From NCBI GenBank assembly GCA_947451115.1, contig CANFXV010000006.1, forward strand, positions 1 through 64,000: a stretch of 64,000 bases of DNA, given 5' to 3'. The notes under the pieces were generated by a model. It made no database searches and was not told the origin of the DNA. It was given only the letters and a program-made list of their open reading frames with translations. Of the stretch, positions 2,348-63,333 are shown piece after piece (positions within the stretch are counted from its first letter, which is position 1; every line of letters starts with the position of its first letter). The position numbers and the translations under genes are program-made. The stretch is from Bacteroidota bacterium. Its GTDB lineage: Bacteria > Bacteroidota > Bacteroidia > Chitinophagales > Chitinophagaceae.

Positions 2348-3895
2348 ATGAAACCAGATGTCGTAAAGACCAAAAAATTAGACATTTTCAACCTTTTTTA
2401 TAGCGGTGCAGCCGTTGTAATTTTAATTGGGGTTATTGCCAAGTTATTGGAGTGGCCTGCCCAAGATCTGCTCATCACTGGCGGTTTAGCCATTGAGGCA
2501 ATCGTGTTTGGGGTATCTGCTGTTAAATTTGTAGATGTCGAAGTGAAGCAGGAAGTGGCCACAGAAGCAACCTTATCCAAAGTAGCAGAAGGATTGGGGA
2601 CAATTGCAGCTAATGCTAAAGCCGCAGCTGGCGAAACCTACATCAATATCCAAACCGGGGATGGATCTGGGTCTGATACGGACATTGCATTAGATGGAAC
2701 GGAAGGTGTAAATGCGGTGGTAAGAATTAACAATCAGGAGTTAATCAATGGTACTGAAGAAAATAATTTAAAAATTGATATCAATGGCGATATTGCGAAT
2801 GCGTCTCTAGCTCAGAAAAATGCAGCACATTCCTTGTGGCAATTGGAGCAAATGGATATCCTTAGTCTTGCAAAGGACTTGTTCTTCCAACCTGCTTGGG
2901 ATAAATTAAGTACCGACGATTACACACAAGTCAGTCAAATTTTTAAAAGAATTTTCGATAAGAAATTACCGAATAAAGAAGCCTTGCCTTTCTTAATACA
3001 GTTCCCAGTGAAATTACCAATTCCAGAAATGAGCAAATTGGTTTTAGACAAGGCGCATACGATGCAAGCAATAGAAGTAGAATTGTTATGTAAAGCTTTT
3101 TCCATCATAAAGTTCAATACTTTTTTTGAAAATTTTATATTATCTGGTCAAGGAGAATCTATTGAAATTAGGCCAAGAAAATCTAAAGAGCAGCAAGTAT
3201 TTGGCGGTGAAGAGGAAGTGGTATTAAGTCATGTACAAAACTATTTCACTAAGGAGCTTATAATTAGCCCTAATATAGAATGCTTAAAGAGTTTGGTTAA
3301 GTTGAAGGATCAAAATTTGCTTGAATACTTTATACAAAAAATTGATATTAAGCAAGAGGCTGAATTATTTTCATTGACCAATATTTTAAATTCAGAGTCT
3401 GACGAATTGAAGAAAAAACTATTGTCTAAATTTAAGAAGGTAAGATATAATGTTGATACTGCTGCTGGGTATGCTTATTTGAAAAACTTAGTACAAACCA
3501 CTTTGTCCTTCTCAGATTCATCCCTTGGGCAACAATATTTCAATAAAATCATTGAATTTCAAATTGCAGAAAATAAGACTATTGTGTTAGACGATGTGGT
3601 TAATTGCTATGCAGATACCATCTACTTCGGGTCTAAAAATGAGTACAGTGTTGCATTGAATGAATTATTTGTCAACGGAGAATTGACTTATTTAAATTAT
3701 ATCAATACCATCATTGAAAAGTTAGTTACAGACAACGTAAGTAAAAAATCTAAGTTATTAGAGTTGTTTAATTTGAATGAACAAGATACGAAGAAAGATG
3801 TGTTCACTAAATTGAATTACCATTTAGCTAAAACAAATACAGTGCCTGCAGGTTCACAGTTGGCGTTTATATTATTATACAAACAATACAGCTAA
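2348..3895 (+). CDS. Divergent GldL-like inner-membrane motor protein with long cytoplasmic tail
   Basis: Protein of 515 aa whose first ~65 residues match the membrane domain of GldL/PorL, the stator-like ring of the T9SS and gliding motor. Two hydrophobic helices (about 17-34 and 41-60) are joined by a short turn KLLEWPAQD. Glu50 in 'LAIEAIVFGVSA' aligns with the essential intramembrane Glu of GldL (E49 in Flavobacterium), and the K32-to-E50 spacing equals the K-to-E spacing I recall for PorL. The conserved His of that turn is Glu35 here. Canonical GldL is about 200-310 aa. Here a Gly/Asp/Asn-rich linker (about 95-150) leads into some 360 residues of mostly helical sequence I do not recognise, predicted cytoplasmic. 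It is the first gene of a four-gene operon, 18 bp before the GldM-like gene. Motor homology is well supported; the role of the tail is unknown. Confidence 0.82.
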   Translation: MKPDVVKTKKLDIFNLFYSGAAVVILIGVIAKLLEWPAQDLLITGGLAIEAIVFGVSAVKFVDVEVKQEVATEATLSKVAEGLGTIAANAKAAAGETYINIQTGDGSGSDTDIALDGTEGVNAVVRINNQELINGTEENNLKIDINGDIANASLAQKNAAHSLWQLEQMDILSLAKDLFFQPAWDKLSTDDYTQVSQIFKRIFDKKLPNKEALPFLIQFPVKLPIPEMSKLVLDKAHTMQAIEVELLCKAFSIIKFNTFFENFILSGQGESIEIRPRKSKEQQVFGGEEEVVLSHVQNYFTKELIISPNIECLKSLVKLKDQNLLEYFIQKIDIKQEAELFSLTNILNSESDELKKKLLSKFKKVRYNVDTAAGYAYLKNLVQTTLSFSDSSLGQQYFNKIIEFQIAENKTIVLDDVVNCYADTIYFGSKNEYSVALNELFVNGELTYLNYINTIIEKLVTDNVSKKSKLLELFNLNEQDTKKDVFTKLNYHLAKTNTVPAGSQLAFILLYKQYS

Positions 3896-3913
3896 TAAAT
3901 TAAAATCTAGGAT

Positions 3914-5287
3914 ATGGCCGAAGGTCACGTAGATGTCAAAAGATACCAGATTATTAGTCTTTTGTATATCGTGTTTATTTGTTTTTCTGTGATCAATATC
4001 AAATTATCGGTATTGGACTCTAATATTTTTACTATTAAGTCATTCCAATCATTGATTGTGGAGGAAGTAAAAAAAGTAGAAATTAGCAACAATATTATTC
4101 AAGACAATATAGACTTATTAAGCAGAAGTGAAAAGGCCAATAGTTATTTAAAGATTAGAACCAGACTTGCTAAAAGTTATGTGGTCATTAGCGGCGTAAT
4201 AAATTATGTAGACAGTGAATTTGCTGCAAAAAAAACAACCTTACTTAAGCAGTTTAATGGTAGAAATTTAATTGAAGAAATATTAAAGAGTGATAGAGGG
4301 GTAAAGCAATTAAGTGTTGATTTATTTGACCTTTCTGATTTTATTAAAAAGGCGCCATTTAAATTGCAAACTTCATTGGATTCTTTAATTCCTATACAAA
4401 AACAGGTAACTACCATCAAAGGAAAAGTGGATGAGTGGGATTATTACATGTTTATGCATAAACCTTCTGCCATTAGTTATATGCAATTGCAGCGTATTAA
4501 GTTATTGGTAGCAAAGGCGCAATTATTATATCAAGAAGCCGCGTTGGCAGAAATTGGGTATCAACCTACCTATTTCTCTAAGTTCAATCCTAAATTGTAT
4601 GTTTTAAAATCTACTGTTAAAGAATACAAGCCAGAGGAGATTATTCAACCTGATCAAAAAGTAATCAAAAAAACAGACGAGGTTTTTGATGATTTGTTTA
4701 GAAATGTTATTAATTCTTTACATACAGAAAATATTTTTACTGGCTTAACTACTTCTTTTATTTCGGACTTTAAATTTGATTTTGACAAAGACTTTACTTT
4801 TGAAGTAATCCCTAAAACAAAAATCACCCAAGTAGGAAAAGATTTCAAAATTACATTTTCAAAAAATGGAGAGTATTTATTAAAATTTTATGATTTAAGA
4901 AAGCAAGAGAAAAAATTACTGTTTGATAAGAAGATTATGGTGAACCCATTGCCTGATCCATTGGTGCGAGTAAAAGGGGATAATTTGAATACTTATAACA
5001 TTAGTGTGAAAGATTTATTAGCGGCTGAAAGATTAGAAGCAAATTTGGAAATTAATAATTTAAAATATTTTCCAGGAAGAATTAACAGTTATAAAGTAGT
5101 AAAAATCCACAATGGGAAAGAGGAAGAATCGGTGTCCAACTATGGCGAGTTGTTCCAATCCACTACCCAAAAAATATTAGGCAGTCTTAAGAAAAACGAT
5201 TTAGTAATATTTGATAACATCAACATGTCATTGGTAGACGGATCAACTAGAACCTCTCCACCAATTATATATAAAATAATAGATTAA
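3914..5287 (+). CDS. Divergent GldM-like periplasmic motor partner
   Basis: Protein of 457 aa with one N-terminal membrane helix (about residues 11-33) preceded by K9-R10, as in GldM/PorM where Arg9 pairs with the GldL glutamate. The rest should be periplasmic. Residues ~40-225 are helical with coiled-coil character and include a GldM-like stretch 'KPSAISYMQLQRIKLLVAKA'. Beta-rich segments follow (about 280-360). The last ~110 residues (IMVNPLPDPLVRVKG ... TSPPIIYKIID) resemble the C-terminal GldM domain, where PDP is typical. Canonical GldM is about 515 aa. The gene follows the GldL-like gene and overlaps the next start by one base (TAATG). No GldK or GldN gene is adjacent, unlike standard gldKLMN loci, so this is more likely a specialised paralogue than the housekeeping T9SS motor. 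Confidence 0.8.
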   Translation: MAEGHVDVKRYQIISLLYIVFICFSVINIKLSVLDSNIFTIKSFQSLIVEEVKKVEISNNIIQDNIDLLSRSEKANSYLKIRTRLAKSYVVISGVINYVDSEFAAKKTTLLKQFNGRNLIEEILKSDRGVKQLSVDLFDLSDFIKKAPFKLQTSLDSLIPIQKQVTTIKGKVDEWDYYMFMHKPSAISYMQLQRIKLLVAKAQLLYQEAALAEIGYQPTYFSKFNPKLYVLKSTVKEYKPEEIIQPDQKVIKKTDEVFDDLFRNVINSLHTENIFTGLTTSFISDFKFDFDKDFTFEVIPKTKITQVGKDFKITFSKNGEYLLKFYDLRKQEKKLLFDKKIMVNPLPDPLVRVKGDNLNTYNISVKDLLAAERLEANLEINNLKYFPGRINSYKVVKIHNGKEEESVSNYGELFQSTTQKILGSLKKNDLVIFDNINMSLVDGSTRTSPPIIYKIID

Positions 5288-7425
5288 TGAGAAAGTTGGC
5301 CCCCTTATTCCTATTCATTTTTCTTTTTATTTCAAACTATGCTCATGCACAGGATACTTTAGCGGGTAATTATCCTAACTTAAATATTCCTTCAGGTAAT
5401 CATGTGATTAAGGATGTGGTTCGTGTTACAGGTGCTTTGGAAGTGGCTGCGGGGGCAAAGATAGAGATGATAGAGGCTGGGCTTATTGTCTGCGAGGGGA
5501 GTGTAACAATGACAGGGGTATCCAATAATATTGAATTTTTCGGGAAGAAAAATTTAGAAGGGGTGGGGCTACTTATAAAAAATAATGATTCTAGTAAAGT
5601 AGTAATAAGCAATACAGTTTTTAGAGGTTTACAGTTGCCATTAATGTTTGATTTTGGATGGAATAGATTGGAAGTTAATATTTCTGATAACGTTTTTATA
5701 AATAATGTGGGAAAGATTTCTGTATTGCAAGTGTTAAATCCACCATTTAATTTTAATACGGATTCTATTTTCACACATTTCAAAGTAAACAACAACCTTT
5801 TTACAGGCAACAATGCTGGTATTTATTTTGAGGATTTGAAAAGCGACCATGTAGATATTGAAATTATAAATAACACATTTGCTAATAATTTTGTGTATGG
5901 GTTCAAAAATTACAATATTTCAACTAATTATATTTATGGAAGAACAGATCAGATTAATACTATTTACAGTGCTAAAATTGAAAAAAATAGTTTTGTAAAA
6001 AACTTTTTAATAGACAATATCTCTGATACCGTAGTTCATGCTGCGAATTTTGGTATTTACGGCACAGAGAAAACCTACAAAATTAATAACAATTACTGGG
6101 GATCAGTGGTGAAAGATGATATTGAAAAAGGAATTTATGATCAAAATTTAAATTATAGCTCCCCTAAGCTAGAATACAATCCATTTTTACAAACACCTGC
6201 CGAATCAAATCCATTGCATGTGTACTCCATAAAAAATGGGGAAACAAATACCGAGTTTCAGGACACATTGACAGTTAAAAGTCAATTAAAAAGTATTGTT
6301 TTAGAAGCAAACAAAAAAGCAAATTATAGTAATGCTAAATTAATATACAGTTACTTTAAATCAGATAGTTCTTTAAAAATTACAGATACGATTTTGACCT
6401 TTAATCCACAAGACATTAGTGGTAATACCACAAAATTAGACATTACTAAAACTATTGCTGTTCCAAAGCAAAGAATTGGTTATTACAATATCAAAGGGAT
6501 TACAGGGGGGAATAATGAATATGTTCCTGATGTTAAAATTGGGTATCAAGCTTATTTATTGCAATTTAGAAAACAAAAAATATTTGTAGATTCTTTAAAA
6601 TCAAAAAAAGATACGGTGGCACCCAAGCCTAAAGAGCTTGATTCTGTGAAAAATCAGTTTCAGAAATTAGAAACACCTCAAAAAAGTAGAATTGAAATTT
6701 CATTATTGGCAGGAGAGACTATTTTCCAGGGAACAATTAGTAATCCTAATTTGTTCAGTAATGAAATGAATATATTGTTTGGAGCTAATATAGGCTATAC
6801 CTTGTATTCCAATTTGAGTGCTAGTTTAGCCATCACTAGTTCAAAACTAAGTAACTCTGATTTTAATTCTACCAACAATGAACAAATTTCAAGAGGAATG
6901 AGTTTTAGTACTTCCATTCTTGGTATTTCTCCAGGTTTGAATTACGATTTTGTAGACAATAGGTTGTATACAAAGGCCAAAAGATTTAGACCTTCTATTG
7001 GAATTGGTTTTGATTTTGTTTCATTTAATCCAACTGGTTTATACAAGAGTAAAGTTTATAATTTACAACCATTGGGTACAGGCGGTCAATTTATAGATAG
7101 TTTAAAAAAACCTTATTCATTAATGGCAATGGGTTATTTTTTCAATTTTAAATTAAAATATCAAATTAATAGATTCAACGGTGTAGGTGTATTTCTAACA
7201 TTGCATCAAAGCTTTTCTGACTATTTAGATGATGTTGGACCAGATGAATATCCTAATGTAGCTAAAATGATTTCAAAAATTAAAACAGATCCGGAGGCGG
7301 CAGTTTATTTTTCTAATCCTTCTGGCAAATCTTTTAGTATTGGACAATTAAGAAGTAGTCCGAATAAGTCTAAAGATAGTTTCGTTAATTTTGGATTCTT
7401 TTATTCAAGAAAATTATTTAAATAA
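5287..7425 (+). CDS. Exported beta-helix protein with C-terminal outer-membrane barrel-like domain
   Basis: Protein of 712 aa with a clear signal peptide (LFLFIFLFISNYAHAQ). Residues ~25-300 have short repeating strands with Asn ladders typical of a right-handed parallel beta-helix (for example 'INNTFANNFVYGF' and 'KINNNYWGS'). A middle region (about 310-440) looks like an Ig-like linker, ending in a Lys/Pro/Ser-rich stretch. Residues ~460-712 alternate amphipathic strands separated by polar turns and end 'FVNFGFFYSRKLFK', as in Bacteroidota outer-membrane barrels. I cannot name a family. Its position right after the GldL/M-like pair suggests the outer-membrane part of the same machine, a job done by PorP/SprF-like barrels in T9SS. 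That role is inference. Confidence 0.7.
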   Translation: MRKLAPLFLFIFLFISNYAHAQDTLAGNYPNLNIPSGNHVIKDVVRVTGALEVAAGAKIEMIEAGLIVCEGSVTMTGVSNNIEFFGKKNLEGVGLLIKNNDSSKVVISNTVFRGLQLPLMFDFGWNRLEVNISDNVFINNVGKISVLQVLNPPFNFNTDSIFTHFKVNNNLFTGNNAGIYFEDLKSDHVDIEIINNTFANNFVYGFKNYNISTNYIYGRTDQINTIYSAKIEKNSFVKNFLIDNISDTVVHAANFGIYGTEKTYKINNNYWGSVVKDDIEKGIYDQNLNYSSPKLEYNPFLQTPAESNPLHVYSIKNGETNTEFQDTLTVKSQLKSIVLEANKKANYSNAKLIYSYFKSDSSLKITDTILTFNPQDISGNTTKLDITKTIAVPKQRIGYYNIKGITGGNNEYVPDVKIGYQAYLLQFRKQKIFVDSLKSKKDTVAPKPKELDSVKNQFQKLETPQKSRIEISLLAGETIFQGTISNPNLFSNEMNILFGANIGYTLYSNLSASLAITSSKLSNSDFNSTNNEQISRGMSFSTSILGISPGLNYDFVDNRLYTKAKRFRPSIGIGFDFVSFNPTGLYKSKVYNLQPLGTGGQFIDSLKKPYSLMAMGYFFNFKLKYQINRFNGVGVFLTLHQSFSDYLDDVGPDEYPNVAKMISKIKTDPEAAVYFSNPSGKSFSIGQLRSSPNKSKDSFVNFGFFYSRKLFK

Positions 7426-7433
7426 TTATACTG

Positions 7434-7889
7434 ATGCTTAGTATTAATAATTATAAGAAAAATTTTATTTCATTTATTATTTTTTCGCTGATTGCATTTT
7501 CATTCATTTCATGTGTGAAAACACAAGCAGTATCGCCATTAGATTTTCAAAAAAATTTATTAGCAGGCACTGGTGCTTACCAAAATACTAAACATACTTG
7601 GAAAATTGATTCCTTGTCGGTGAATGGCACAGTGTATAAATTGAATGCAGCTCAAAAAAAATATACCAAAACCTTTAGTAGGGATGGTTCCTATACAGAT
7701 AGTGATGGGGTAATTGGTACTTGGTCAATGCCTACCATTACTGATTTAATTCTAAATTTTCAGGCTGGATTGGCTGGAATAAAAATTACCAACAAGTTTC
7801 AGGTGGTTGATATCAATGCTGTTCAACTTCATTTAAAGTATGATAGTGCCAATGTTAAACAAGATATTATATTTATTTTTAATAATTAA
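7434..7889 (+). CDS. Small lipoprotein, lipocalin-like fold suspected
   Basis: Protein of 151 aa with a lipoprotein signal: a basic N-region (NYKKN), a hydrophobic core and the lipobox FISC with Cys27. The mature part, with 'KHTWKIDSLSVNG' followed by 'SRDGSYTDSDGVIGTWSM', looks like the small lipocalin-type lipoproteins common in Bacteroidota, in which a WxxDS... strand and a 'G.W' strand recur. The function is unknown. It starts 8 bp after the beta-helix/barrel gene and is the last gene of that operon, so it may be an outer-membrane accessory of the motor complex. Confidence 0.7.
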   Translation: MLSINNYKKNFISFIIFSLIAFSFISCVKTQAVSPLDFQKNLLAGTGAYQNTKHTWKIDSLSVNGTVYKLNAAQKKYTKTFSRDGSYTDSDGVIGTWSMPTITDLILNFQAGLAGIKITNKFQVVDINAVQLHLKYDSANVKQDIIFIFNN

Positions 7890-7960: not shown

Positions 7961-9040
7961 ATGACCCCCTTATTAGAAAAAGTTTTTTTTGCAATCTTTG
8001 CTTTATCCATATTGGTCTTTTTTGACGTACTTATTAAATTCAAACGTCCATTTATTTTAAAATACAATTTTTTATTAATTGTTACAGGAATTGGTTTTGC
8101 TTCTTATGTACATAGTTTGGATTTGTATTCTACTCAATATGCATTATATATTATATTATGTAAAGCATTTGTTTCTTCCGCTTTTTTAAATGTTTTTAGT
8201 ATTTTATATTTCCCTAAGTTTAGAAAATGGGTAATAGGTATATCTATATTATTGATATCTTTTTCTATCTATTCCTTTTATTATAATGAGACTTTTAACC
8301 CTGGATATAATTCCTCTTTAAAAGCGCAAACCATTGTGGTTGTTAGAGCTGAGAACTTAAAACTACCACTATTGTTTATGATTTTAAGGGTGATGTTAAT
8401 TGCCTCTTTTGCTTCCACCTTTATTTATTTTTTATATAAAATAATCAATAAATTCGGGATGAATAATATTTACTTTGATAAAATAAAAGCATGGACTATT
8501 ACGATATTTATCATGATGGTTTTACTCATTTTAATGTATTTGCCTATTCCAATTATACAAAATAATTATACAGTAGGTTATTCTATTTCTGTATTGTATT
8601 ATGTTTATATTTTATTTGTCATTTTATATAGACCTGCCTTTCTAAATAAATCATCCATGAAAATTGCATTCGGGGATAGTTTTAAAAAGAATGCAGACCT
8701 TTTGATCAAGGACATAGATTTCATCAATCATTTCTTTACCTACTTTTATTTTACAAAACCTGACGCTTCCTTAGATAATTTTGCTGCTGTTTTAAATGTG
8801 GGCAGTAATGATCTTTATAAGTATGTATATTACAAGTACAATCTAACTTTCAACGATTTAGTGAATAAACAAAGGGTAGAGTATTTCATTGATATTATAC
8901 ACAATCCTAAGTATTTAAACTATACCATTGATGCTCTAGCAAAGGAGGCGGGTTTCTCCTCCAGACAGCATCTATATAAGCCCTTTAAGAAATTTCATGG
9001 AGGCAACCCCTCAGACCTAATAGATTCGATTGTGGTCTAA
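7961..9040 (+). CDS. Multi-TM membrane protein with C-terminal AraC-type HTH
   Basis: Regulator of 359 aa. Residues 1-225 contain about six or seven hydrophobic helices (for example 'VFFAIFALSILVFFDVLI' and 'TITIFIMMVLLILMYLPI'). Residues ~250-355 form an AraC/XylS-type DNA-binding domain, with the first HTH around 'DNFAAVLNVGSNDLYKYV' and the second around 'IDALAKEAGFSSRQHLYKPF'. TM-AraC proteins of this design are common in Bacteroidota and probably couple an envelope signal to transcription. It lies between the motor operon and the giant-protein operon, so it is a plausible regulator of one or both. The ATG start is supported because the first TM helix begins within 10 residues. Confidence 0.88.
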   Translation: MTPLLEKVFFAIFALSILVFFDVLIKFKRPFILKYNFLLIVTGIGFASYVHSLDLYSTQYALYIILCKAFVSSAFLNVFSILYFPKFRKWVIGISILLISFSIYSFYYNETFNPGYNSSLKAQTIVVVRAENLKLPLLFMILRVMLIASFASTFIYFLYKIINKFGMNNIYFDKIKAWTITIFIMMVLLILMYLPIPIIQNNYTVGYSISVLYYVYILFVILYRPAFLNKSSMKIAFGDSFKKNADLLIKDIDFINHFFTYFYFTKPDASLDNFAAVLNVGSNDLYKYVYYKYNLTFNDLVNKQRVEYFIDIIHNPKYLNYTIDALAKEAGFSSRQHLYKPFKKFHGGNPSDLIDSIVV

Positions 9041-9229: not shown

Positions 9230-9724
9230 ATGATTCATATCTGTTTTCTAAGATTTTTTTCTAGTATCACGCTGAATTTGTTAAATATAGAAGAAAATCG
9301 AAAATTGTATATTAGAAGTAATCCGTTTTTTATGAAATTTTTCAAAGCATTAAAATTATTTTATATACGTAATTTGATTAAAAATGAGAATAAAATCAAG
9401 GTTTTATTTGATCATCATTTTTTCACTAATCAATACTATTTACATAAATCTGCCACAGAAACACATATGGCAAATATTTTAAATATAAAAACTACCTTTT
9501 TAAACGAGATCACCCAAAAGAACTACAATCTAGAATTTAATGAATTATGTGAAAAATACAGGTTTGCACATTTTTGGAATGAATTTACGAATCCATTAAA
9601 TGCTGAATTACCAATTAATTCTTTAATCAATGCCTCTGGTTTCAAATCGGAAGAAGACTTCTCCAATTTAATTTCAAGCCATAAAGAGGAAAGTAAAAAA
9701 ATCATATCTGGACAATTCCTTTGA
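9230..9724 (+). CDS. Small AraC-like HTH protein, paralogue of the upstream regulator
   Basis: Protein of 164 aa with no membrane helices. Residues ~60-155 align by eye with the DNA-binding domain of the preceding AraC protein: both have a HFFT motif, 'ANILNIKTTFLNEI' aligns with 'AAVLNVGSNDLYKYV', then 'NLEFNELCEKYR' and 'SLINASGFKSEEDFSNLI'. The second HTH looks less conserved, so DNA binding is uncertain. The N-terminal sensor part is absent. The start could instead be the ATG at 9332 (MKFFKALK). The next gene starts inside the stop codon region, so this is the head of the giant-protein operon and may be its local regulator. Confidence 0.68.
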   Translation: MIHICFLRFFSSITLNLLNIEENRKLYIRSNPFFMKFFKALKLFYIRNLIKNENKIKVLFDHHFFTNQYYLHKSATETHMANILNIKTTFLNEITQKNYNLEFNELCEKYRFAHFWNEFTNPLNAELPINSLINASGFKSEEDFSNLISSHKEESKKIISGQFL

Positions 9725-10212
9725 GAAATATAATAACCATATTATTCTTATTCATTACGATGAATGTTCATTCCCAAATTGGGTTAAGCTATTCTATTGG
9801 CTCTATTGGCGGTATGTCCAATGCCTCAGCATCCAGTGGGTCGATTTCGATTTATAAAAAAAATTGTTTCATCGTTGCAAATAATGTCTCAAAATTTTGG
9901 CCTACTAAAAAAGGTGAATTTTTTGCTTCTTGCTTGGTGGATTTAGATTACATAAAATTGAGTATTAAAATCACCCCCAATCCTGTAAACACTTACGCCA
10001 ATATTAAATTTTTAAACATGATTCAAAGTGATAATCAGTTTAAATTGATTGTCTATAACAATACTGGCCAGCCTTCCATTTCGAAAGAAGTAACGCAGGA
10101 TGCATTTTTGGCTGGTTATAAATTGGATATGTCAACATTGTCTTCTGGGTATTATTTTATTCAAATAGCCTCTAATTCAATTTTGCAAACTTTTAAAATT
10201 TTGAAGAATTAA
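9721..10212 (+). CDS. Mini T9SS cargo: signal peptide plus type A sorting domain
   Basis: Protein of 163 aa with signal peptide 'IITILFLFITMNVHSQ', a short middle part of about 60 residues, and a C-terminal ~80-residue domain that reads as the T9SS type A sorting domain. That domain contains 'ITPNPVNTYANIKF', a central 'LIVYNNTGQ', 'MSTLSSGYYFIQIA' and a final 'FKILKN'. The start must be TTG at 9721, because the first internal ATG (9760) would remove the signal core. This TTG overlaps the TGA stop of the AraC-like gene by four bases, suggesting translational coupling. The mature protein is hardly more than a sorting domain, so it may be an anchor or subunit rather than an enzyme. Confidence 0.8.
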   Translation: MRNIITILFLFITMNVHSQIGLSYSIGSIGGMSNASASSGSISIYKKNCFIVANNVSKFWPTKKGEFFASCLVDLDYIKLSIKITPNPVNTYANIKFLNMIQSDNQFKLIVYNNTGQPSISKEVTQDAFLAGYKLDMSTLSSGYYFIQIASNSILQTFKILKN

Positions 10213-10219
10213 TAATACA

Positions 10220-13200
10220 ATGAATAAAATAACTAAAATATTATTATTTATAGTTTTATTATTTTCTTTTGAGAATTTGATAGCACAGACGCAGCCTAGT
10301 GGAATTTTATTTCAGGCAGTTGCTAGGGATGTGAGTGGAAATGCCGCTGCAGCAAGAACCATTTATGCGATCGTTGATATTCACGAAGCAACGGCCACAG
10401 GATCGACTGTTTATTCTGAAAGTCATCAAGTAACTTCTAATGATGATGGTATTTTCAATTTAATTATAGGCAATGGAGTTCGTTTGGCCGGCGTAACAAA
10501 ATTTGATAATCTAAATTGGAGATCACAAATTTATTTTATTAGTTTAAAAATAGCCATTGCGCCTTCTATTCCCACACCAGGTTGGGACCTTACAAAAGAA
10601 TATGTGGATATGGGTACCTCTCAGATTTGGGCGGTGCCTTATGCATTCAGTGCTTTTAAAGCAGTAATCGCAGATTCTGCTACAAAATTTGGTGGGGTAT
10701 TGGCAGGTGAAAGTGGAGGTACTGGAATTAATAACACTGGCAAAACGATTACTTTAGGTAAGAATTTTGAAATTCAAGGATTGGGGAATTTAAAGTTCAA
10801 TACGATTGGAACGACTAGCCTTAATTTACCAATGACAGGAACCCTGGTGACCAGAGAGAATTTAGATACTCTAAGTAATAAGTATTTGGTTTCACCTGTT
10901 TTTATTGGCAAGCCTAAAACACCCAATCCTGATAGTTTAAGCAATGACAGCACTGTAGCCAATACTTATTTTGTAAAATCTAATCTTAAGAATCAAATAG
11001 CAAATTTAAAGAATGAACTTACAAGCAATATTGATTCTTCCTCAGGTTTAAATTTAAGAATTGCAGATACTGCAGCCATGTTAACCAAAAGAATAAAAAA
11101 GGATACCTCCTTTTTATTACAGAAAAAAGATACGATTACTTTGTCTAATAGGATTGATAATCTGGCTTCAGCCACAGCCACCGGTACTAATTTAAAAGTT
11201 AATATTTCAGACACATCGGTCATGTTGTCCAAAAGGTTTGAAAGAGATACGGTGTCTTTGTCTAATAGAATTAATTTAAAAGTAAATACTTTAAATGCTA
11301 CAATAGATTCAAGTTTATATGTAAATGGAAAAGTCAGAATTGATTCTGTGCTAACATTGAATGATTCGTTGAGGGTCGTTGGTAATACTTTGATTGATTC
11401 TAATTTAACAATTGGCCAAGATTTATTTGTGGGAGGGAAGTTGACTGTTGCCTCTGGTTTTGATTTTAAAGATTCATTGACAGTTAGTCGAGGAGCTAGA
11501 ATAGATTCAAGTTTGTTGTTGAAGGGAAAGCTTTTATTGAATGATTCCTTATTGGCAAAAGGTAACGTGAAGGTTGATTCAAATTTGTATGTCAATCAAA
11601 TAGCAATTATTAATGATTCTTTATTAGCGAAAAGTGCTGTGAAAGTTGATGGTAATTTGCAAGTAAATCAAAAGACCAGATTAATTGACTCGTTAACTGT
11701 AATGGGAGCAACAATATTAAATAATGGCTTGACTGTAATAGGTAATACAAATACAGGAACCTTATCATCCACAAGAACTGATGCAGGAATATTAGCTGCA
11801 GGCAACACTACAATCACTGGAACCTTAAGCACAACTGGTGTTGCTACAATCGGCAATAATTTAGTAGTTACGGGCAATACGAAAACAGGAACTTTGTCAG
11901 TGACTGGAGCTACAGATTTAAAAAATACGAATATTACAGGGGCCTTAGGTGTAACAACTACAGTTACAGCGAATGCGTTATCAGCAAACAGTGCGAGTGT
12001 AAGTAGTAATTTAGTAGTTGCGGGTAATACGAAGTCAGGAACATTGTCAGTGACGGGAGCTACAGATTTAAAAAATACGAATATTACAGGGGCCTTAGGT
12101 GTAACAGCTACAGTTACAGCGAATGCCTTATCAGCAAACAGTGCAAGTGTAACAAACGATTTAGTAATTGCAGGTAATACGAAGACTGGGACTTTGTCAG
12201 TAACAGGAACTACTGATTTAAATAATACGAATGTTGCAGGGGATTTAGTTGTTACCAATACAGCTAAGGCGAATACCTTATCAGCTACAACTACGAATGC
12301 AGGAACCTTAACGGCAAACAGTGCGAGCGTAACAAACGATTTAGTAGTTACAGGCAATACAAATACAGGAACCTTAAGTACAACAGGTGTTGCTACAATC
12401 GGGGATAATTTAGTAGTCACCAACAACACAAATACAGGAACTTTAAGTATAACAGGTGTTGCTACAATCGGAGATAATTTAGTAGTCACCAACAACACGA
12501 ATACAGGAACTTTAAGTACAACAAGTGATGCGAGTGTTGGTGGTAATTTAGTAGTTACAGGCAATACAAATACAGGCACTTTATCATCCACAAGAACTGA
12601 TGCAGGAATATTAGCTGCAGGCAATACCACAATCACTGGAACCTTAAGCACAACTGGTGTTGCTACAATCGGGAATAATTTAGTAGTTACGGGCAATACG
12701 AAAACAGGAACTTTGTCAGTGACAGGAACTACAGATTTAAAGAATACGAATATCACAGGGGCCTTAGGTGTAACAACTACAGTGACGGCGAATACCTTAT
12801 CAGCAACCACTGCGAGTGTAAGTGGTAATTTAGTAGTTGCGGGTAATACGAAGACAGGAACATTGTCAGTGACGGGAGTTACGGATTTAAAAAATACGAA
12901 TATTACAGGGGCCTTAGGTGTAACCACTACAGTTACAGCGAATGCCTTATCTACAAACAGTGCAAGTGTAACAAACAATTTAGTAGTTGCTGGTAATACG
13001 AGAACAGGAACTTTGTCAGTAACAGGAACAACTGATTTAAATAATACGAATGTTGCAGGTGACTTAGTTGTTACCAATACAGCTACAGCGAATACCTTAT
13101 CAGCTACAACTACAAATGCAGGAACCTTAACAGCAAACAGTGCGAGCGTAACAAACGATTTAGTAGTTACAGGCAATACAACTACAGGAACCTTAATTAC

Positions 13201-15556
13201 AGTAGGTGTTGCTACGATCGGAGATAATTTAGTAGTCACCAACAACACGAATACAGGAACTTTAAGTACAACAAGTGATGCAAGTGTTGGTGGTAATTTA
13301 GTAGTTACAGGCAATACAAATACAGGTACATTGTCATCCACAAGAACTGATGCAGGAATATTAGCAGCAGGCAATACCACGATCACAGGAACCTTTAGTA
13401 CAACAGGTGTTGCTACAATCGGGAATAACTTAGTAGTTACAGGTAATACGAAAACAGGGACTTTGTCAGTGACAGGAACTACAGATTTAAAAAATACGAA
13501 TATCACAGGGGCCTTAGGTGTAACCACTACAGTTACAGCGAATACCTTATCAGCTACAACTACAAATGCAGGAACCTTATCAGCAACCAGTGCAAGTGTA
13601 AGTAGTAATTTAGTAGTTGCGGGTAATACGAAGACAGGAACATTGTCAGTGACGGGAGTTACGGATTTAAAAAATACGAATATTACAGGGGCCTTAGGTG
13701 TAACAACTACAGTTACAGCGAATGCCTTATCTACAAACAGTGCAAGTGTAACAAACGATTTAGTAGTTGCAGGTAATACGAGAACAGGAACTTTGTCAGT
13801 AACAGGAACAACTGATTTAAATAATACGAATGTTGCAGGGGACTTAGTTGTTACCAATACAGCTACAGCGAATACCTTATCAGCTACAACTACAAATGCA
13901 GGAACCTTAACAGCAAACAGTGCGAGCGTAACAAACGATTTAGTAGTTACAGGCAATACGAAAACAGGAACCTTAAGTACAACAGGTGTTGCTACAATCG
14001 GGGATAATTTAGTAGTCACCAACAACACGAATACAGGAACCTTAAGTACAACAGGTGTTGCTACAATCGGAGATAATTTAGTAGTCACCAACAACACGAA
14101 TACAGGAACCTTAAGTACAACAGGCGTTGCTACAATCGGAGATAATTTAGTAGTCACCAACAACACGAATACAGGAACCTTAAGTACAACAGGTGTTGCT
14201 ACAATCGGAGATAATTTAGTAGTCACCAACAACACGAATACAGGAACCTTAAGTACAACAGGTGTTGCTACAATCGGAGATAATTTAGTAGTCACCAACA
14301 ACACGAATACAGGCACTTTGTCAGTTACTGGAGCGACAATATTAACAGGAGCTGCAACAATAAGTAGTACATTATCAGTGGCAGACGCTACCACATTAAA
14401 TAATGGATTGACTGTTACAGGTAATACTAAAACAGGAACCTTAAGTACAACAGGTGTTGCTACAATCGGAGATAATTTAGTAGTCACCAACAACACGAAT
14501 ACAGGAACTTTAAGTACAACAAGCGATGCGAGTGTGGGAGGAAATTTAGTAGTTACAGGTAATACTAAAACTGGAACTTTATCGGTAACGGGTGCAGTGA
14601 AAGTAGACGGAAATATTTTAGTAAAAGGCTTAAATGTTTCAGATAGTCTTACAAAATTTTCTACTAAAAAATTAAATGCAACAGATACTGCATCTTTATC
14701 TACAAGAATTGATGCTTTGTCTTCAGGTTCTAATAAATTCACTGCCGACTTAAAAGTAAATTTTGGTGGTGGTAGTTTTGGTAAATATACCGATAGGCAA
14801 ATCATTCCTGCTGCAGGCAAAACAATTGATGAGGTATTTGCCGATATCTTAACCACCATCATTCATCCTTCTTATCAGGCCCCAACTGCAAGTTTATCTA
14901 TCACCTCAAGTAATAGCATCGCTAGTGGTTACGTAGAAATTGGAGCTAATTTAGGTACCCTTACTTTAGTTCCTACATTTACTCAAAATAGAGGAGGAGC
15001 TTCTACCGGTATTGTATACAAGAAAGATGGTGTAACCATAGCTTCTACAAATGTGCCTGCAGCTTTAACTTCGGCAATTAGTTATTCAGTTACTTATACT
15101 TATGCAGCTGGAACAACCGTGCAACAGAATAACATTGGTCAGGACGATGTGGTCAATCAAGTAACAGCGGGCTCTGTTACAACCAACACTGTAACTTATA
15201 CCCCAGCATCCTATAAATATTGGGGAGTATCAACCAATCCTTCGGCAAGTATCACTGATGCTGATATTCGTGCCATGTCAGGGGGTGGCCAAGAATTTGC
15301 AAATTCAAAATCAAAATCATCCTTTACTATTACTGGATCTGGAGGTGCAGGCCCTGTGAAATATGCATTTTATGCATTTCCAACATCAACACCAGGTGCT
15401 ACCATTACAAGTATTTTGGCTGGAGGATTTGAAAGTATTGCAGCCTTTGATCATATAACTAGAACATTTAGAAATGCATCAGGATATGATTTAAGTTATG
15501 AGATCTATGTTCAAAAAAATAGCGGAACAGATAATGTAACACTAATAATAAATTAA
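10220..15556 (+). CDS. 1778-aa exported fibre-like repeat protein
   Basis: The signal peptide (LLFIVLLFSFENLIAQ) is followed by an N-terminal domain of about 130 residues, 'GILFQAVARDVSGN' to 'QIWAVPYAFSAFKA'. I know this domain from many Bacteroidota surface or tail-fibre-like proteins. Residues ~160-500 repeat 'DSLLAKGNVKVDSN'-type units. Residues ~500-1470 are dense Thr/Asn/Gly repeats of the form 'NTGTLSxTGxATIGDNLVVT', likely a beta-helical stalk. The C-terminal ~260 residues begin 'NFGGGSFGKYTDRQIIPAAGKT', a module I associate with phage-like fibre tips. There is no T9SS sorting domain at the end. It starts 7 bp after the mini-cargo gene and overlaps the next start by one base. Surface localisation is inferred; export route and partner are unknown. 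Confidence 0.82.
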   Translation: MNKITKILLFIVLLFSFENLIAQTQPSGILFQAVARDVSGNAAAARTIYAIVDIHEATATGSTVYSESHQVTSNDDGIFNLIIGNGVRLAGVTKFDNLNWRSQIYFISLKIAIAPSIPTPGWDLTKEYVDMGTSQIWAVPYAFSAFKAVIADSATKFGGVLAGESGGTGINNTGKTITLGKNFEIQGLGNLKFNTIGTTSLNLPMTGTLVTRENLDTLSNKYLVSPVFIGKPKTPNPDSLSNDSTVANTYFVKSNLKNQIANLKNELTSNIDSSSGLNLRIADTAAMLTKRIKKDTSFLLQKKDTITLSNRIDNLASATATGTNLKVNISDTSVMLSKRFERDTVSLSNRINLKVNTLNATIDSSLYVNGKVRIDSVLTLNDSLRVVGNTLIDSNLTIGQDLFVGGKLTVASGFDFKDSLTVSRGARIDSSLLLKGKLLLNDSLLAKGNVKVDSNLYVNQIAIINDSLLAKSAVKVDGNLQVNQKTRLIDSLTVMGATILNNGLTVIGNTNTGTLSSTRTDAGILAAGNTTITGTLSTTGVATIGNNLVVTGNTKTGTLSVTGATDLKNTNITGALGVTTTVTANALSANSASVSSNLVVAGNTKSGTLSVTGATDLKNTNITGALGVTATVTANALSANSASVTNDLVIAGNTKTGTLSVTGTTDLNNTNVAGDLVVTNTAKANTLSATTTNAGTLTANSASVTNDLVVTGNTNTGTLSTTGVATIGDNLVVTNNTNTGTLSITGVATIGDNLVVTNNTNTGTLSTTSDASVGGNLVVTGNTNTGTLSSTRTDAGILAAGNTTITGTLSTTGVATIGNNLVVTGNTKTGTLSVTGTTDLKNTNITGALGVTTTVTANTLSATTASVSGNLVVAGNTKTGTLSVTGVTDLKNTNITGALGVTTTVTANALSTNSASVTNNLVVAGNTRTGTLSVTGTTDLNNTNVAGDLVVTNTATANTLSATTTNAGTLTANSASVTNDLVVTGNTTTGTLITVGVATIGDNLVVTNNTNTGTLSTTSDASVGGNLVVTGNTNTGTLSSTRTDAGILAAGNTTITGTFSTTGVATIGNNLVVTGNTKTGTLSVTGTTDLKNTNITGALGVTTTVTANTLSATTTNAGTLSATSASVSSNLVVAGNTKTGTLSVTGVTDLKNTNITGALGVTTTVTANALSTNSASVTNDLVVAGNTRTGTLSVTGTTDLNNTNVAGDLVVTNTATANTLSATTTNAGTLTANSASVTNDLVVTGNTKTGTLSTTGVATIGDNLVVTNNTNTGTLSTTGVATIGDNLVVTNNTNTGTLSTTGVATIGDNLVVTNNTNTGTLSTTGVATIGDNLVVTNNTNTGTLSTTGVATIGDNLVVTNNTNTGTLSVTGATILTGAATISSTLSVADATTLNNGLTVTGNTKTGTLSTTGVATIGDNLVVTNNTNTGTLSTTSDASVGGNLVVTGNTKTGTLSVTGAVKVDGNILVKGLNVSDSLTKFSTKKLNATDTASLSTRIDALSSGSNKFTADLKVNFGGGSFGKYTDRQIIPAAGKTIDEVFADILTTIIHPSYQAPTASLSITSSNSIASGYVEIGANLGTLTLVPTFTQNRGGASTGIVYKKDGVTIASTNVPAALTSAISYSVTYTYAAGTTVQQNNIGQDDVVNQVTAGSVTTNTVTYTPASYKYWGVSTNPSASITDADIRAMSGGGQEFANSKSKSSFTITGSGGAGPVKYAFYAFPTSTPGATITSILAGGFESIAAFDHITRTFRNASGYDLSYEIYVQKNSGTDNVTLIIN
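11741..14090 (+). repeat. Long-period internal repeats of the 1778-aa gene (819 and 750 bp)
   Basis: The marker 'TCATCCACAAGAACTGATGC' (protein SSTRTDAG) occurs at 11765, 12584 and 13334, giving periods of 819 and 750 bp. The 69-bp difference is exactly one 23-residue unit, so copies differ by whole-unit gain or loss. Each period holds several 'LKNTNITGALGVTTTVTAN' blocks. Nucleotide identity between copies is high by eye. Confidence 0.88.
13955..14299 (+). repeat. 69-bp tandem repeat array, five units
   Basis: Five near-identical 69-bp units encode NTNTGTLSTTGVATIGDNLVVTN (23 aa). Unit starts are 13955, 14024, 14093, 14162 and 14231, and a partial sixth starts at 14300. Units differ at only a few bases, which favours slippage or recombination in frame. 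Single or paired relatives occur near 12356-12493, 13225 and 14457. Confidence 0.93.
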
Positions 15557-18500
15557 TGAAAAAAATAATTTTACTATATGTGTTTTTTCAATTGATTTAT
15601 TCTGTGACCAATGCACAGATTAAGTTATTGGATTTTATTTCTCCTGCCAACGGAGCTACCAACCCTACGCATATAGATAGCTTGGGTAAGGGGGGATATA
15701 TGGTAGTTCCTTCAATTAGTAATCGTAATGCCATTCCTATCACAAGAAGAAAATATGGAATGTTGGTTTATGTTCAGGCTGTTGATTCATTGTATAAATT
15801 AAATTCAGTAAATTTAGATGATTTAAATTGGGTGGCACTGGGTTTATATTCAGCAGAAAAAGTAAAAGCCGATGCGGCTGCAGCCAATGGTTCTTTAGCT
15901 GATACAGCAAGAGTTTTAAGGGCAAAAATATTAACAGATTCCACAAATATTACTACTGCAACACAAACTGCATTAGACTTAAAAGCAAATCTAGCATCAC
16001 CAACTTTAACAGGAATACCTACAGCACCTACACCTGCTGATGGCACTAGTACAACACAAATAGCAACTACAGCTTTTGTTAAATCAAGCATAACGGCTTC
16101 ATCAAATAGTATTGGAGGAGTAAGTTCGTCAACAATTGCGTCAATAGCGCAAGATATTGCTGCTGCTACTCCAAACAATACACCTAATACTTTAGTTAAA
16201 AGAGATGGTAGTGGAAATTTTAGTGCGGGAATAATTACAGCTAATTTAGCAGGTAATGCAAGTACTACCACACAATTAGCGACTACAAGATCTATCTATG
16301 GCAATTCATTTAATGGGGGTGCTGATTTAGCACAAGCTATTGCTGGTACTTATGGAGGTACAGGCGTAGATAATGGAACCAAAACAATCACCTTAGGTGG
16401 TAATATATCCACTGCAAATAGTTTTACAACAGTTGGAAATTTCAATACCACTTTAACAAGTACCGGAGCAACCAATATTACCTTACCCACCACGGGTACA
16501 ATTGCAACTTTAGCAGGAACGGAAACTTTGACTAATAAGACTATAACCTCACCAACTATTTCATCCCCTTCATTAACTGGAAGCCCTACTGCACCTACAC
16601 CAGTGGCTAATGCAAATAGTACAGAGGTAGCAACAGCAGCCTTTGTTAAATCTCAAATATCAAGTGCAGCTACACCAGCAACATTAACAGCGAAGGGAAT
16701 CATAATGTTAGCGAACGATTTAGGAGGCACAGCGGACTTGCCCACTGTAAATAGTGTAGGAGGTGTAAGTTCTGCAACAGTAGGTACAATTAATACTACG
16801 ATCAATGCAGCCACCTCAAATAATACTCCTAATACCTTAGTTAAAAGAGATGGTAGTGGAAATTTTAGTGCAGGTAATGTAACAGCCTCCTTAACGGGTA
16901 ATGTTACAGGTAATGTAGTAGGTAATGTGACGGGAAATTTAGCAGGTAATGCAAGTACTACCACACAATTAGCGACCGCTAGATCTATCTATGGCAATTC
17001 ATTTAATGGGGGTGCTGATTTAGCGCAAGCTATTGCAGGTACTTATGGAGGTACAGGCGTAGATAATGGAACCAAAACAATCACCTTAGGTGGTAATATA
17101 TCCACTGCAAATAGTTTTACAACAGTTGGAAATTTCAATACCACTTTAACAAGTACCGGAGCAACCAACATTACTTTGCCAACCACAGGTACAGTTGCGA
17201 CATTAACAGGTTCGGAAACTTTTACTAATAAAACTATCGTATCACCAACTATTTCATCACCTTCTTTAACAGGAAGCCCTACAGCACCTACACCAGCTGT
17301 TAATGCAAATAGTACAGAGGTAGCGACAGCAGCCTTTGTTAAATCTCAGATATCATCTGCAGCAACAGATGCAACAACTACAGCAAAGGGCATCCTACAA
17401 CTAGCTAATGATTTAGGCGGTACTGCAGCCTTGCCTACAGTAAATAGTGTAGGGGGTGTAAGTTCTGCAACAGTAGGTACTATTAATACTACGATCAATG
17501 CAGCAACATCCACTAATACTGCTAGTACCTTAGTTAAAAGAGATGCGAGCGGTAATTTTATAGCAGGGAATGTAACAGCATCATTAACAGGTAATGTAAC
17601 AGGTAATTTAACAGGTAATGTGGTAGGTAATGTGACTGGAAATTTAGCAGGTAATGCAAGTACTACTACACAATTAGCAACACCAAGAACAATCTACGGT
17701 AATTCATTTGATGGTACGGCTAATTTAGCGCAAGCTATTGCAGGTACCTATGGAGGTACAGGCGTAGATAATGGAAATAAAACAATCACCTTAGGTGGAA
17801 ATATAACCACCGCAAGTGCTTTTATAACAGCTGGTAATTTCAGTACCACTTTAACAAGTACCGGCGCAACCAATATTACACTTCCAACAACAGGCACCAT
17901 TGCAACTTTAGCAGGTACAGAAACTTTAACCAATAAAACGCTTGTTTCTGCCAATTTAACTGGAAGTCCAACAGCTTCAACTCCCTCAGATGCTGCAACC
18001 AATACTGAGGTAGCTACAGCCTCCTTTGTTCTTTCAAAGATTACTGCATCATCCAATAGTATAGGTGGGGTAAGTTCGTCAACAATAGCTTCCATTGCTT
18101 CTGATATAGCTGCTGCTACTTCAAGTAATACAGCTAATACTTTGGTGAAGAGAGATGGAAGTGGAAATTTTTATGCAGGAACTGTTATTGCCAACTTATC
18201 GGGTAATGCAAGTACAGCTACAAAATTAGCAGCAACTAAAACTATTTATGGAAATGCATTTGATGGTAGTGTAGATTTAGGACAAGCTATAGCAGGTACT
18301 TATGGAGGTACCGGTGTTGATAATGGATCTAAGACAATTACCTTAGGCGGCAATGTTTTAACTGCAAGTGATTTCACCACTTCTGGTAATTTTAGTACAA
18401 CTTTAGTAAGTACAGCACCAACCAATATCACTTTGCCAACCACCGGTACGATTGCAACTTTAGCAGGTACAGAAACGTTGACCAATAAAACTATTGTATC

Positions 18501-21500
18501 ACCAACCATTTCCTCACCTTCCTTAACTGGAAGCCCAACAGCCCCTACACCGGTTGCTAATGCAAATGGAACAGAGGTGGCTACAGCAGCATTTGTTAAA
18601 GCGCAAATATCAAGTGCAGCAACAGATGCTACAAACACTGCGAAGGGGATTATAAAATTAGCCAATGATTTAGGGGGTACAGCAGACTTGCCAACAGTGA
18701 ATATAGTAGGAGGTGTTAGTTCTTCTACCATCGCTAATATTAATACAACAATTAATGCAGCTACATCAACTAATACAGTCAGCACCTTAGTTAAAAGAGA
18801 TGCAAGTGGTAATTTTAATGCTGGGATTGTAAAAGCCTCATTGATTGGAAGTGTGACTGGAGATGTAACAGGAAACTTAACTGGTAATGCAAGTACAGCT
18901 ACAAAATTAGCTGCAACAAAAAATATTTACGGTAATCCTTTTGATGGCAGTGCCGATTTAGGTCAAGCCATTGGAGGCACCTATGGAGGAACAGGCATAG
19001 ATAATGGAAACAAAACAATAAGATTGGGCGGCAATATTTTAACAGCAAGTGATTTCACCACTTCGGGTAATTTTAGTACAACTTTAGTAAGTACAGGACC
19101 TACTAATATTACTTTACCAACTACCGGTACCATTGCTACGTTATCAGGCACAGAAACTTTAACTAGTAAAACGATTGTATCCCCATCGATTCTAACGCCA
19201 ACTATTTCATCACCTTCTTTAACAGGGACACCAACTGCACCAACACCTGCTTCAGAAGCTAATAATACACAAGTAGCAACTACAGCATTTGTTAAAGCTC
19301 AGATATCAAGTTCAGCAACAGGTGCAACAGCAACTGAAAGAGGGATCATTAAATTAACAAATGACTTAGGGGGCACTGCAGATTTACCAACTGTGAATAG
19401 TGTAGGTGGAGTAAATTCTTCAACAATTGGGTCTATCAACACAACTATAAATGCAGCTACTTCTAGTAATACAGTTAATACATTAGTTAAAAGAGATGCG
19501 AGTGGTAATTTTAGTGCAGGAACTGTAACAGCAGCATTAACAGGAAATGTAACTGGTAATGTGGTAGGTAATTTAACAGGTAATGTAGTAGGAAATTTAA
19601 CTGGTAATGTGTTAGGTAATGTAACAGGTAACTTAGCAGGAAATGCTAGTACAACTACGCAATTACAAACACCAAGAACGATATATGGTAACTCTTTTGA
19701 CGGCACCACTAACTTAGCACAAGCTATTGGAGGTGCTTATGGAGGAACTGGTATAGACAATGGATCTAAGACGATCACCTTAGGCGGAAATATTTTAACC
19801 GCAAGTGATTTCACCACTTCGGGTAATTTTAGTACAACTTTAGTAAGTACAGGACCTACTAATATTACTTTACCAACCACTGGTACAATTGCTACTTTAG
19901 CAGGAACAGAAACTTTGACAAATAAAACAATTATATCCCCTGATATTTTAACGCCAACTATTTCATCACCTTCTTTAACAGGGACACCAACGGCCCCAAC
20001 TCCTGCTTCAGATGCGAATAGCACACAAGTTGCTACTACCGCTTTTGTTCGTTCTCAAATATCAAGTTCAGCCACAGGTGCAACATCTACTGAAAAAGGT
20101 ATTATATTATTAGCAGGTGATTTAGGTGGTACAGCAGATGTACCAAGAGTAAATACTGTAGGTGGAGTTAGTTCTTCAACAATTACTACCATTGCAAGCA
20201 CTACCGCGTCTGCAACTTCAACTAATTCGGCGAATACCTTAGTTAAAAGAGATGGTAGTGGAAATTTTAGTGCAGGCACCATTACTGCAAGTTTAGCAGG
20301 TAATGCAAGTACTACTACTCAATTAGCTACAGCAAGAACTATCTATGGAAATTCTTTCGATGGTACTGCCGATTTAGGTCAAGCTATTGCAGGAACTTAT
20401 GGTGGTACTGGTGTAAGTAATGTGGGTAAAACAATCACTTTAGGAGGAAATATTACAACTGCTAATAATTTTACCACTGCAGGTAATTATAGTACAACCT
20501 TAACTAGTATAGGTGCAACAAATGTCACCTTACCAACTACTGGTACCATTGCAACTTTAGCAGGTAATGAAACTTTGACCAATAAAACCATTGAAAATGT
20601 AACGCTTACTGGAGTACCAAATGCACCTACTGCACTTAATAGTAGTAATGATTCACAGATTGCAACCACCAAGTTCGTAAATAATTTACTTACATCCTCA
20701 TCAATATCTGGTGATAAAATAGTGGGTGTTATACCAGTAATTAATGGCGGTACAGGTCAGTCTACCTATACTGATGGACAAGTATTAATTGGAACTACAT
20801 CTGGCACATTAAGTAAGACCACTTTGACAGCAGGTAGTGGTGTTACTATCACTAATGGGAATGGTTCAATCACTGTTTCAGCAACAGGTAGTGGCGGAAC
20901 TGTTACAAGTGTAAATCCAATTACTGTAAATGCGAGTGGAAGTTCATTTACCTCAACTGTAGCTAATGCTAATTCAGTTCCAGCCATTTCATTAACGATA
21001 CCACTTGCTTCTGTTTCAGGAACAAATGCAGGCTTGTTAAGTAATACAGACTATGATATTTTTAATGCTAAGCAAGTAGCCTTAACTGCAGGTTCGGGAA
21101 TTTCATTAGTAGCAGGTACGATTTCTGCCACTGGCTTAACTACTAGTAATTTATCAAGTTCTGCTGGTATCACCAATGGACAATTGGCCTATAGTAAAAC
21201 AACCTTAGGGTCCACAGATTTAATTTTAGGAGGAACAGTTAATTCAGTAACAGGATTGACTGCACTCGCTGCTACAAATATTACAGGGGCATTAACTGGA
21301 GATGTTACAGGTAATTTAACTGGTAATGTAACTGGAAATTTAGCAGGGAATGCAAGTACCACTACACAATTGGCTACAGCAAGAACAATCTATGGTAATT
21401 CATTTGATGGTACGGCTAATTTAGCACAAGTGATTGGAGGTACTTATGGAGGTACAGGAGTAGATAATGGAAATAAAACAATAAGATTGGGCGGTAATAT

Positions 21501-59755: not shown

Positions 59756-59759
59756 ATTT

Positions 59760-60839: not shown

Positions 60840-60862
60840 TATAAATCAAAACAATCGTTGGA

Positions 60863-62974: not shown

Positions 62975-62986
62975 AAATTTAAAAAG

Positions 62987-63301
62987 ATGAAACAGATAGC
63001 ATTTGAAATGAAATTAATAGCAGGCAATGAAGCCGAATACAAAAAGCGTCATGATGCTATTTGGCCTGAACTAGCTACTTTATTAAAAACAACAGGCATT
63101 AGCGAGTATGCTATTTATTTAAATGAAGCAACGGGTGCTTTATTTGGCGTAATGAAAGTGCAAGATGAAATGGCCTTAGACGCTTTGCCAAAACAACCCA
63201 TTATGCAAAAATGGTGGGCTTATATGAAGGATATTATGTTAACCCATTCGAATGATTCACCTATTTCTATTCCCTTAACCCATGTATTTTATTTGCCCTA
63301 G
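62987..63301 (+). CDS. rhaM: L-rhamnose mutarotase RhaM
   Basis: Cytoplasmic enzyme of 104 aa that interconverts the alpha and beta anomers of L-rhamnose. It is full length for the family. His22 in 'YKKRHDAIWPEL' corresponds to the catalytic His of RhaM, and 'KWWAYMKDIM' is the conserved aromatic block. It sits between the aldolase fusion and rhaI. Confidence 0.94.
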   Translation: MKQIAFEMKLIAGNEAEYKKRHDAIWPELATLLKTTGISEYAIYLNEATGALFGVMKVQDEMALDALPKQPIMQKWWAYMKDIMLTHSNDSPISIPLTHVFYLP

Positions 63302-63333
63302 TATACGCTTTCGTAAAAGTTAAATTAACCAAA

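Follow-up and report, generated by a model that had tools for sequence, protein, structure and literature searches.

The Locus

The window, i.e., the whole stretch of 64,000 nucleotides that was analysed, comes from a freshwater bacterium that carries a normal gliding/secretion motor and extra copies of the type described here. Its forward strand encodes a GldL-like protein, a GldM-like protein and an outer-membrane barrel protein, for which we coined the working names GldL*, GldM* and bhPorG, followed by regulators and giant secreted proteins:

2348-3895, + strand: GldL*, a GldL paralogue of 515 aa, whose open reading frame (ORF) reads ...VIAKLLEWPAQDLLITGGLAIEAIVFGVSAVKF
3914-5287, + strand: GldM*, with one transmembrane (TM) helix, a helical region and a C-terminal D4-like domain (residues 345-455)
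5287-7425, + strand: bhPorG, ~710 aa, with a signal peptide, a beta-helix (23-265), an Ig-like domain (312-418), a helix and a PorG-like eight-strand barrel (469-710)
7434-7889, + strand: small lipoprotein-like secreted protein, conserved in the operon
7961-9040, + strand: membrane protein with an AraC-type HTH (PF12833, E 6.5e-07), the probable operon regulator, in conserved context
9230-9724, + strand: small HTH (AraC-like) protein (PF12833, E 6e-4)
9721-10212, + strand: small secreted protein with a C-terminal type A T9SS sorting domain (PF18962, E 5.5e-09), in conserved context
10220-15556, + strand: giant secreted fibre-like protein of 1778 aa, T/N/G-rich, without Cys
15556-25944, + strand: giant secreted fibre-like protein of 3462 aa, without Cys
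25968-56339, + strand: secreted repeat protein of 10,123 aa, T/G/S-rich, in a single ORF

Homologues of the 1778-aa protein lie downstream of motor genes in other species. The gene for the 10,123-aa protein starts 23 bases past that for the 3462-aa protein, a spacing which suggests that it belongs to the same operon. No T9SS C-terminal domain (CTD) was recognised in the giant fibre proteins of the window, and the C-terminus of the 10,123-aa protein, read by eye, has no obvious T9SS sorting domain.

The window ends, past the giant genes (56423-63999), in a rhamnose-use cluster composed of a GH106 rhamnosidase, a RhaT-like transporter and an aldolase/dehydrogenase fusion. At its other end, positions 1-139 resemble the 3′ portion of a group I intron truncated by the edge of the window (RF00028, with a sub-gathering score of 30.8 bits and E 3.7e-06), and the stretch after it (~170-212) has the look of a tRNA 3′ half; ARAGORN reported no tRNA in the whole window.

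GldL* and Its Motor Residues

The protein of the 2348-3895 ORF, which includes MKPDVVKTKKLDIFNLFYSGAAVVILIGVIAKLLEWPAQDLLITGGLAIEAIVFGVSAVKF, consists of two TM helices (residues 13-33 and 39-57), a variable linker (59-159) and a C-terminal folded domain of 356 residues. It scores above the cut-off of PF22827 (GldL_N; 39.8 bits, cut-off 24) and below that of the NCBI GldL equivalog TIGR03513 (28.5 bits, cut-off 68.3), against which a short-form GldL* reaches 62.1 bits. The solved GldL/PorL chains 7sau and 7sat could be aligned to it by sequence, with 7sax matched too, and Foldseek returned the same three entries for its predicted two-helix part (probability 0.99-1.00). The codons considered below are the following:

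2441-2443, + strand: Lys32 of GldL*, equivalent of F. johnsoniae K27
2450-2452, + strand: Glu35 of GldL* (GAG), at the position of the canonical His
2495-2497, + strand: Glu50 of GldL* (GAG), equivalent of F. johnsoniae GldL Glu49
3941-3943, + strand: Arg10 of GldM*, equivalent of the TM Arg R9

In F. johnsoniae, GldL Glu49 is essential and the proton gradient is used through it (PMC8986121). Both E50 and K32 are invariant in 112 of 112 GldL N-termini and in 119 of 119 GldL-GldM pairs, and the GldM TM Arg is kept in all 119 pairs. An earlier note on this DNA had claimed that the motor residues are retained and had named the loss of Glu50 in close homologues as what would speak against it; the claim is borne out, and such a loss occurs in none of the 112 N-termini. 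Judged by sequence, then, GldL* of the window is a member of the GldL family with the motor residues kept.

Aligned with the second-copy GldL* of the same genome, the window gene has 23 synonymous differences and no non-synonymous one over codons 7-68, which indicates that the whole motor (TM) region is under strong purifying selection. The C-terminal domain differs at 135 synonymous and 122 non-synonymous sites. Residues 160-515 (window 2825-3892) are confidently predicted to form a cytoplasmic domain, with pLDDT mostly 85-94 over residues 180-515 of the AlphaFold model, and they are missing from the short-form GldL* of Sediminibacterium goheungense. A Pfam search with residues 160-515 gave no match, and a Foldseek search of the C-terminal domain against the PDB gave no convincing one. 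The loss of GldL Glu59 (K60 in GldL*) was entertained as a gliding-specific change and dropped, since canonical Chitinophagaceae GldLs are often without Glu59.

GldM* and Its Probable Outer-Membrane Partner

GldM* passes the cut-off of PF12080, the C-terminal/D4 domain of GldM (31.3 bits, cut-off 24.6), and remains far below that of the NCBI GldM equivalog TIGR03517 (19.9 bits of 180). Its profile matches the GldM/PorM structures 7sat, 7saz and 6ys8; comparison with the profile of one canonical GldM gave a low probability, over D4 only. A tree of the GldM N-terminal region separates the variant from the canonical proteins with support of 100/100.

The bhPorG layout, i.e., beta-helix, Ig-like domain, helix and eight-strand barrel, comes from an AlphaFold prediction. 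Foldseek relates the barrel to those of OmpA, OmpW and NspA, and in eight-strand barrel proteins the N-terminal domains lie in the periplasm. The PorG profile NF052316 matches the window protein at E 4e-14 (52.8 bits of 130, below the equivalog cut-off) and the proteins of the various cassettes at E 4e-14 to 6e-29. Resembling PorG of the T9SS, bhPorG of the window has a predicted eight-strand barrel that matches this profile below its cut-off; unlike PorG, it carries a beta-helix and an Ig-like domain, together ~450 residues, and it has no periplasmic C-tail. PorG is disulfide-linked to GldK in F. johnsoniae (PMC12635249). The window bhPorG has no tail cysteine, and the PorG candidates of the same genome (L184 and L185) have none either, so the missing cysteine is not usable as an argument for independence from GldK.

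Motor Sets and Distribution of the Cassette

The ordinary gldK-gldL-gldM-gldN set is intact on another contig of the genome (C16); its GldL reads KILHLG and thus has the His. Contig C19 carries a second GldL*-GldM* locus, with a GldL* 69 % identical to that of the window. Neither gldK nor gldN was found at the window locus, at the C19 locus or at the other long-form loci examined; the only gldK/gldN set found by own-genome searches is at the canonical locus. A weak GldM match on contig C33 turned out to be a malonyltransferase-like ORF and not GldM. Upstream of the second GldL* locus (L009:2927-4390), an ORF that by eye resembles a tyrosine recombinase could be the mark of a mobile or recently moved segment.

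The Glu form is present in 25 of the 101 genomes of the genus Sediminibacterium (E below 1e-13), which has been described as gliding (PMC9258536). It coexists with a separate, further GldL match in 24 of 26 variant-bearing genomes (the 25 of the genus plus one other), and the remaining two are incomplete assemblies, of 82 and 60 %. The order GldL*-GldM*-bhPorG-lipoprotein, then a T9SS-CTD protein and giant fibre proteins, is fixed in some 20 species. In part of the short-form loci, bhPorG is separated from GldL*-GldM*, or replaced, by a giant protein or by an SprF-like gene.

The cultured S. goheungense DSM 28323 shows the order giant adhesin, PorP/SprF protein, GldL*, GldM* and bhPorG. Its GldL* is of the short form (217 aa), and its adhesin has SprB repeats, PKD-like and Ig-like repeats and a type B CTD. 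Going by gene content, this locus links a gliding pair of the SprB/SprF type to motor genes of its own. No SprF stands beside the motor in the window or in its long-form relatives, where the giant proteins are of another, fibre-like type.

Beyond Sediminibacterium, related GldL-GldM-bhPorG cassettes exist in a different genus of the same family and in additional families of the order (L196, L199 and L226-L231, with L225 partial). Their bhPorG proteins match most of the search profile (E 1e-70 to 3e-92), and the GldL of one of them, L199, passes TIGR03513 (104.4 bits, cut-off 68.3). A single origin of all cassettes was not rejected in a tree test (p-AU 0.67). Several weak GldM-profile matches in the order were discarded as canonical GldM beside gldN/gldK or as lone D4 domains. 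One cassette has two tandem bhPorG genes behind a single GldL-GldM pair (L226:6989-13056), and the C-terminus of the first weakly matches the myxobacterial gliding/cohesion proteins CglD and MtsD.

The Residue at the Inter-Helix Turn

The earlier note had also read the turn His as replaced by Glu35 and had asked whether this Glu is fixed in the subfamily. In our alignment, E35 falls on the His of 7sau and 7sat (KILHW and KLLHL), and in the AlphaFold model of GldL* it sits in the turn between the two helices, as that note had proposed. Among GldL N-termini sampled from the genus, the family and the phylum, all 43 distinct variant sequences have Glu at site 35, while the 69 canonical ones have His in 65 cases and Asp in four. 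These alignments tell us that the His-to-Glu swap is real and fixed in the lineage. Within the variant clade, conservation is just as high at the neighbouring W36, Q39 and D40, and the fixation of E35 alone therefore proves no special role.

The four Asp cases indicate that the turn His is neither essential nor strictly defining in the family. They are otherwise canonical GldLs of one family (L157, L162, L168 and L170), with Gln at GldM position 31. In each of the four genomes, the Asp-bearing protein is the sole GldL match, so an acid at this site is compatible with what is apparently the only T9SS motor of the cell. In the eight other GldL-GldM-bhPorG cassettes, site 35 is Asn (5), His (2) or Asp (1), so that Glu marks the Sediminibacterium-type lineage and not the cassette as such.

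Ser32 of GldM* occupies the place of GldM Glu31, and the two sites were considered jointly in 119 GldL-GldM pairs (71 canonical, 40 variant and 8 from other cassettes), which are related by descent and are to be read as such. Written as GldL-35/GldM-31, the canonical pairs are H/E (54), H/A (6), H/S (4), D/Q (4), H/H (2) and H/T (1); the variant pairs are E/S (39) and E/T (1); and the other cassettes are N/E (5), D/N (1), H/E (1) and H/D (1). An acid at both sites occurs in none of the 45 pairs with an acid at GldL-35, whereas 61 of the 74 pairs with His or Asn there have an acid at GldM-31. The acid at GldL-35 arose three times, so that just three events count, and in one case the sister group had lost E31 beforehand.

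We infer that, most likely, one acidic group moved from GldM to GldL across the L-M interface, at the periplasmic mouth. The mutual exclusion of the two acids fits such a relocation of charge better, and more simply, than a new pH sensor. GldM E31A causes no gliding defect in F. johnsoniae (PMC8986121), and the relocated charge may therefore not matter. Two further proposals were abandoned: a coupled swap of His to Glu and of GldM Ser to Lys, because Lys30 is found in the long form only and the short form has Pro, and a shorter GldM arm as a sign of direct coupling, because the cassette GldMs of other families (539-551 aa) exceed the canonical ones.

Discussion

GldL* and GldM* resemble canonical GldLM in their gene order, in the two-TM architecture of GldL* with the motor Glu and Lys, and in the Arg and D4 domain of GldM*. 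They depart from it in the Glu that stands for the turn His, in a 356-residue extra domain that has no known relative, in a GldM* that has no acid at position 31, in scores under the TIGR03513 and TIGR03517 cut-offs, and in long-form loci that lack adjoining gldK/gldN. The general proton-motor architecture is shared with other 5:2 motors, i.e., MotAB, ExbBD and TolQR (PMC9389320), but sequence and structure place both proteins in GldLM.

The explanation towards which we lean, with a confidence slightly above even, is that 2348-7425 encodes an additional proton-driven motor of the 5:2 type, derived from the GldLM of secretion and gliding and serving giant adhesins. GldL* would provide the ring and the proton path via E50 and K32, and GldM* would be the axle (R10), ending in the D4-like domain. 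A GldL*5:GldM*2 complex would tap the proton gradient by way of E50, in the manner of E49 in canonical GldLM. The beta-helix and Ig-like domain of bhPorG would hang in the periplasm within reach of GldM*, which would pass force to bhPorG, and the giant surface proteins of the neighbouring genes would probably be placed or moved in this way. That no T9SS CTD is recognised in the giant fibre proteins of the window speaks against this. General secretion would be left to the ordinary gldKLMN elsewhere in the genome. Glu35 would supply from GldL the single acid that canonical motors carry on GldM (Glu31).

A bolder version, which we regard as tentative and fairly doubtful, takes GldL-GldM-bhPorG as a stand-alone envelope machine, in which the motor, independent of a GldK/GldN track, would drive the barrel directly via its periplasmic beta-helix and so position or move giant adhesins. 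GldM* has retained a D4-like domain, and in canonical systems the tip of D4 in PorM is predicted to touch PorN (PMC12635249), so that the ordinary GldKN track may still be what the extra motor feeds. This leads to the possibility, on the unlikely side in our judgement, of an auxiliary T9SS motor, i.e., that GldL*/GldM* drives the GldKN ring or track of the canonical motor, perhaps under other conditions, with bhPorG as an extra PorG. The retained D4 domain, the PorG-like barrel, the single gldK/gldN set found, at the canonical locus, and the GldK link of F. johnsoniae PorG (PMC12635249) all agree with it, and the nearby AraC-type regulators would suit a use under other conditions. It leaves the large beta-helix/Ig extension of bhPorG unexplained, however, and the absence of a C-tail and tail cysteine also counts against it, although not decisively given the PorG candidates of the same genome. 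A Zorya-like defence motor or a degenerate, non-functional duplicate is hardly credible. Zorya uses a MotAB-type 5:2 motor and the GldL* gene is a paralogue, but PADLOC gave no match for the four proteins submitted, strong purifying selection argues against decay, and the operon is conserved together with an outer-membrane barrel and secreted proteins.

Returning to Glu35, it is quite possible, if a little short of an even chance, that it is a neutral lineage marker, the His being dispensable and the clade having merely fixed Glu. The Asp of four canonical GldLs, the Asn, Asp and His of other cassettes and the equally invariant neighbours of E35 are what one would expect in that case, and a review of F. 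johnsoniae mutants reports effects on secretion for Y13 and K27 and, in the passages found, is silent on the His (PMC9127263). Neutrality sits less well with the three separate gains of an acid, all of them accompanied by a non-acidic GldM-31, and with conservation in 43 of 43 sequences while GAG (24) and GAA (18) both serve as the Glu codon. The reading of the earlier note, in which Glu35 alters how the motor responds to pH or couples to ions, seems improbable to us: a titratable group is indeed changed in the inter-helix turn of a proton motor, but related motors have Asp, Asn or His at the same site.

In the literature searched, we found no paper naming these GldL-like and GldM-like paralogues. 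Nor did we find there any description of the fixed Glu, of the large C-terminal domain of GldL*, of the fusion between beta-helix and PorG-like barrel or of the dedicated cassette; the motor itself is of a known kind. To our knowledge, current models give Bacteroidota one GldLM motor for both secretion and gliding. The natural series of His, Asn, Asp and Glu, with the matching absence of the GldM acid, offers ready substitutions to probe the periplasmic mouth of the motor. If our preferred explanation of a dedicated second motor of the GldLM type is true, it would allow secretion and gliding to be separated genetically, and the cultured S. goheungense is a place to test the idea.
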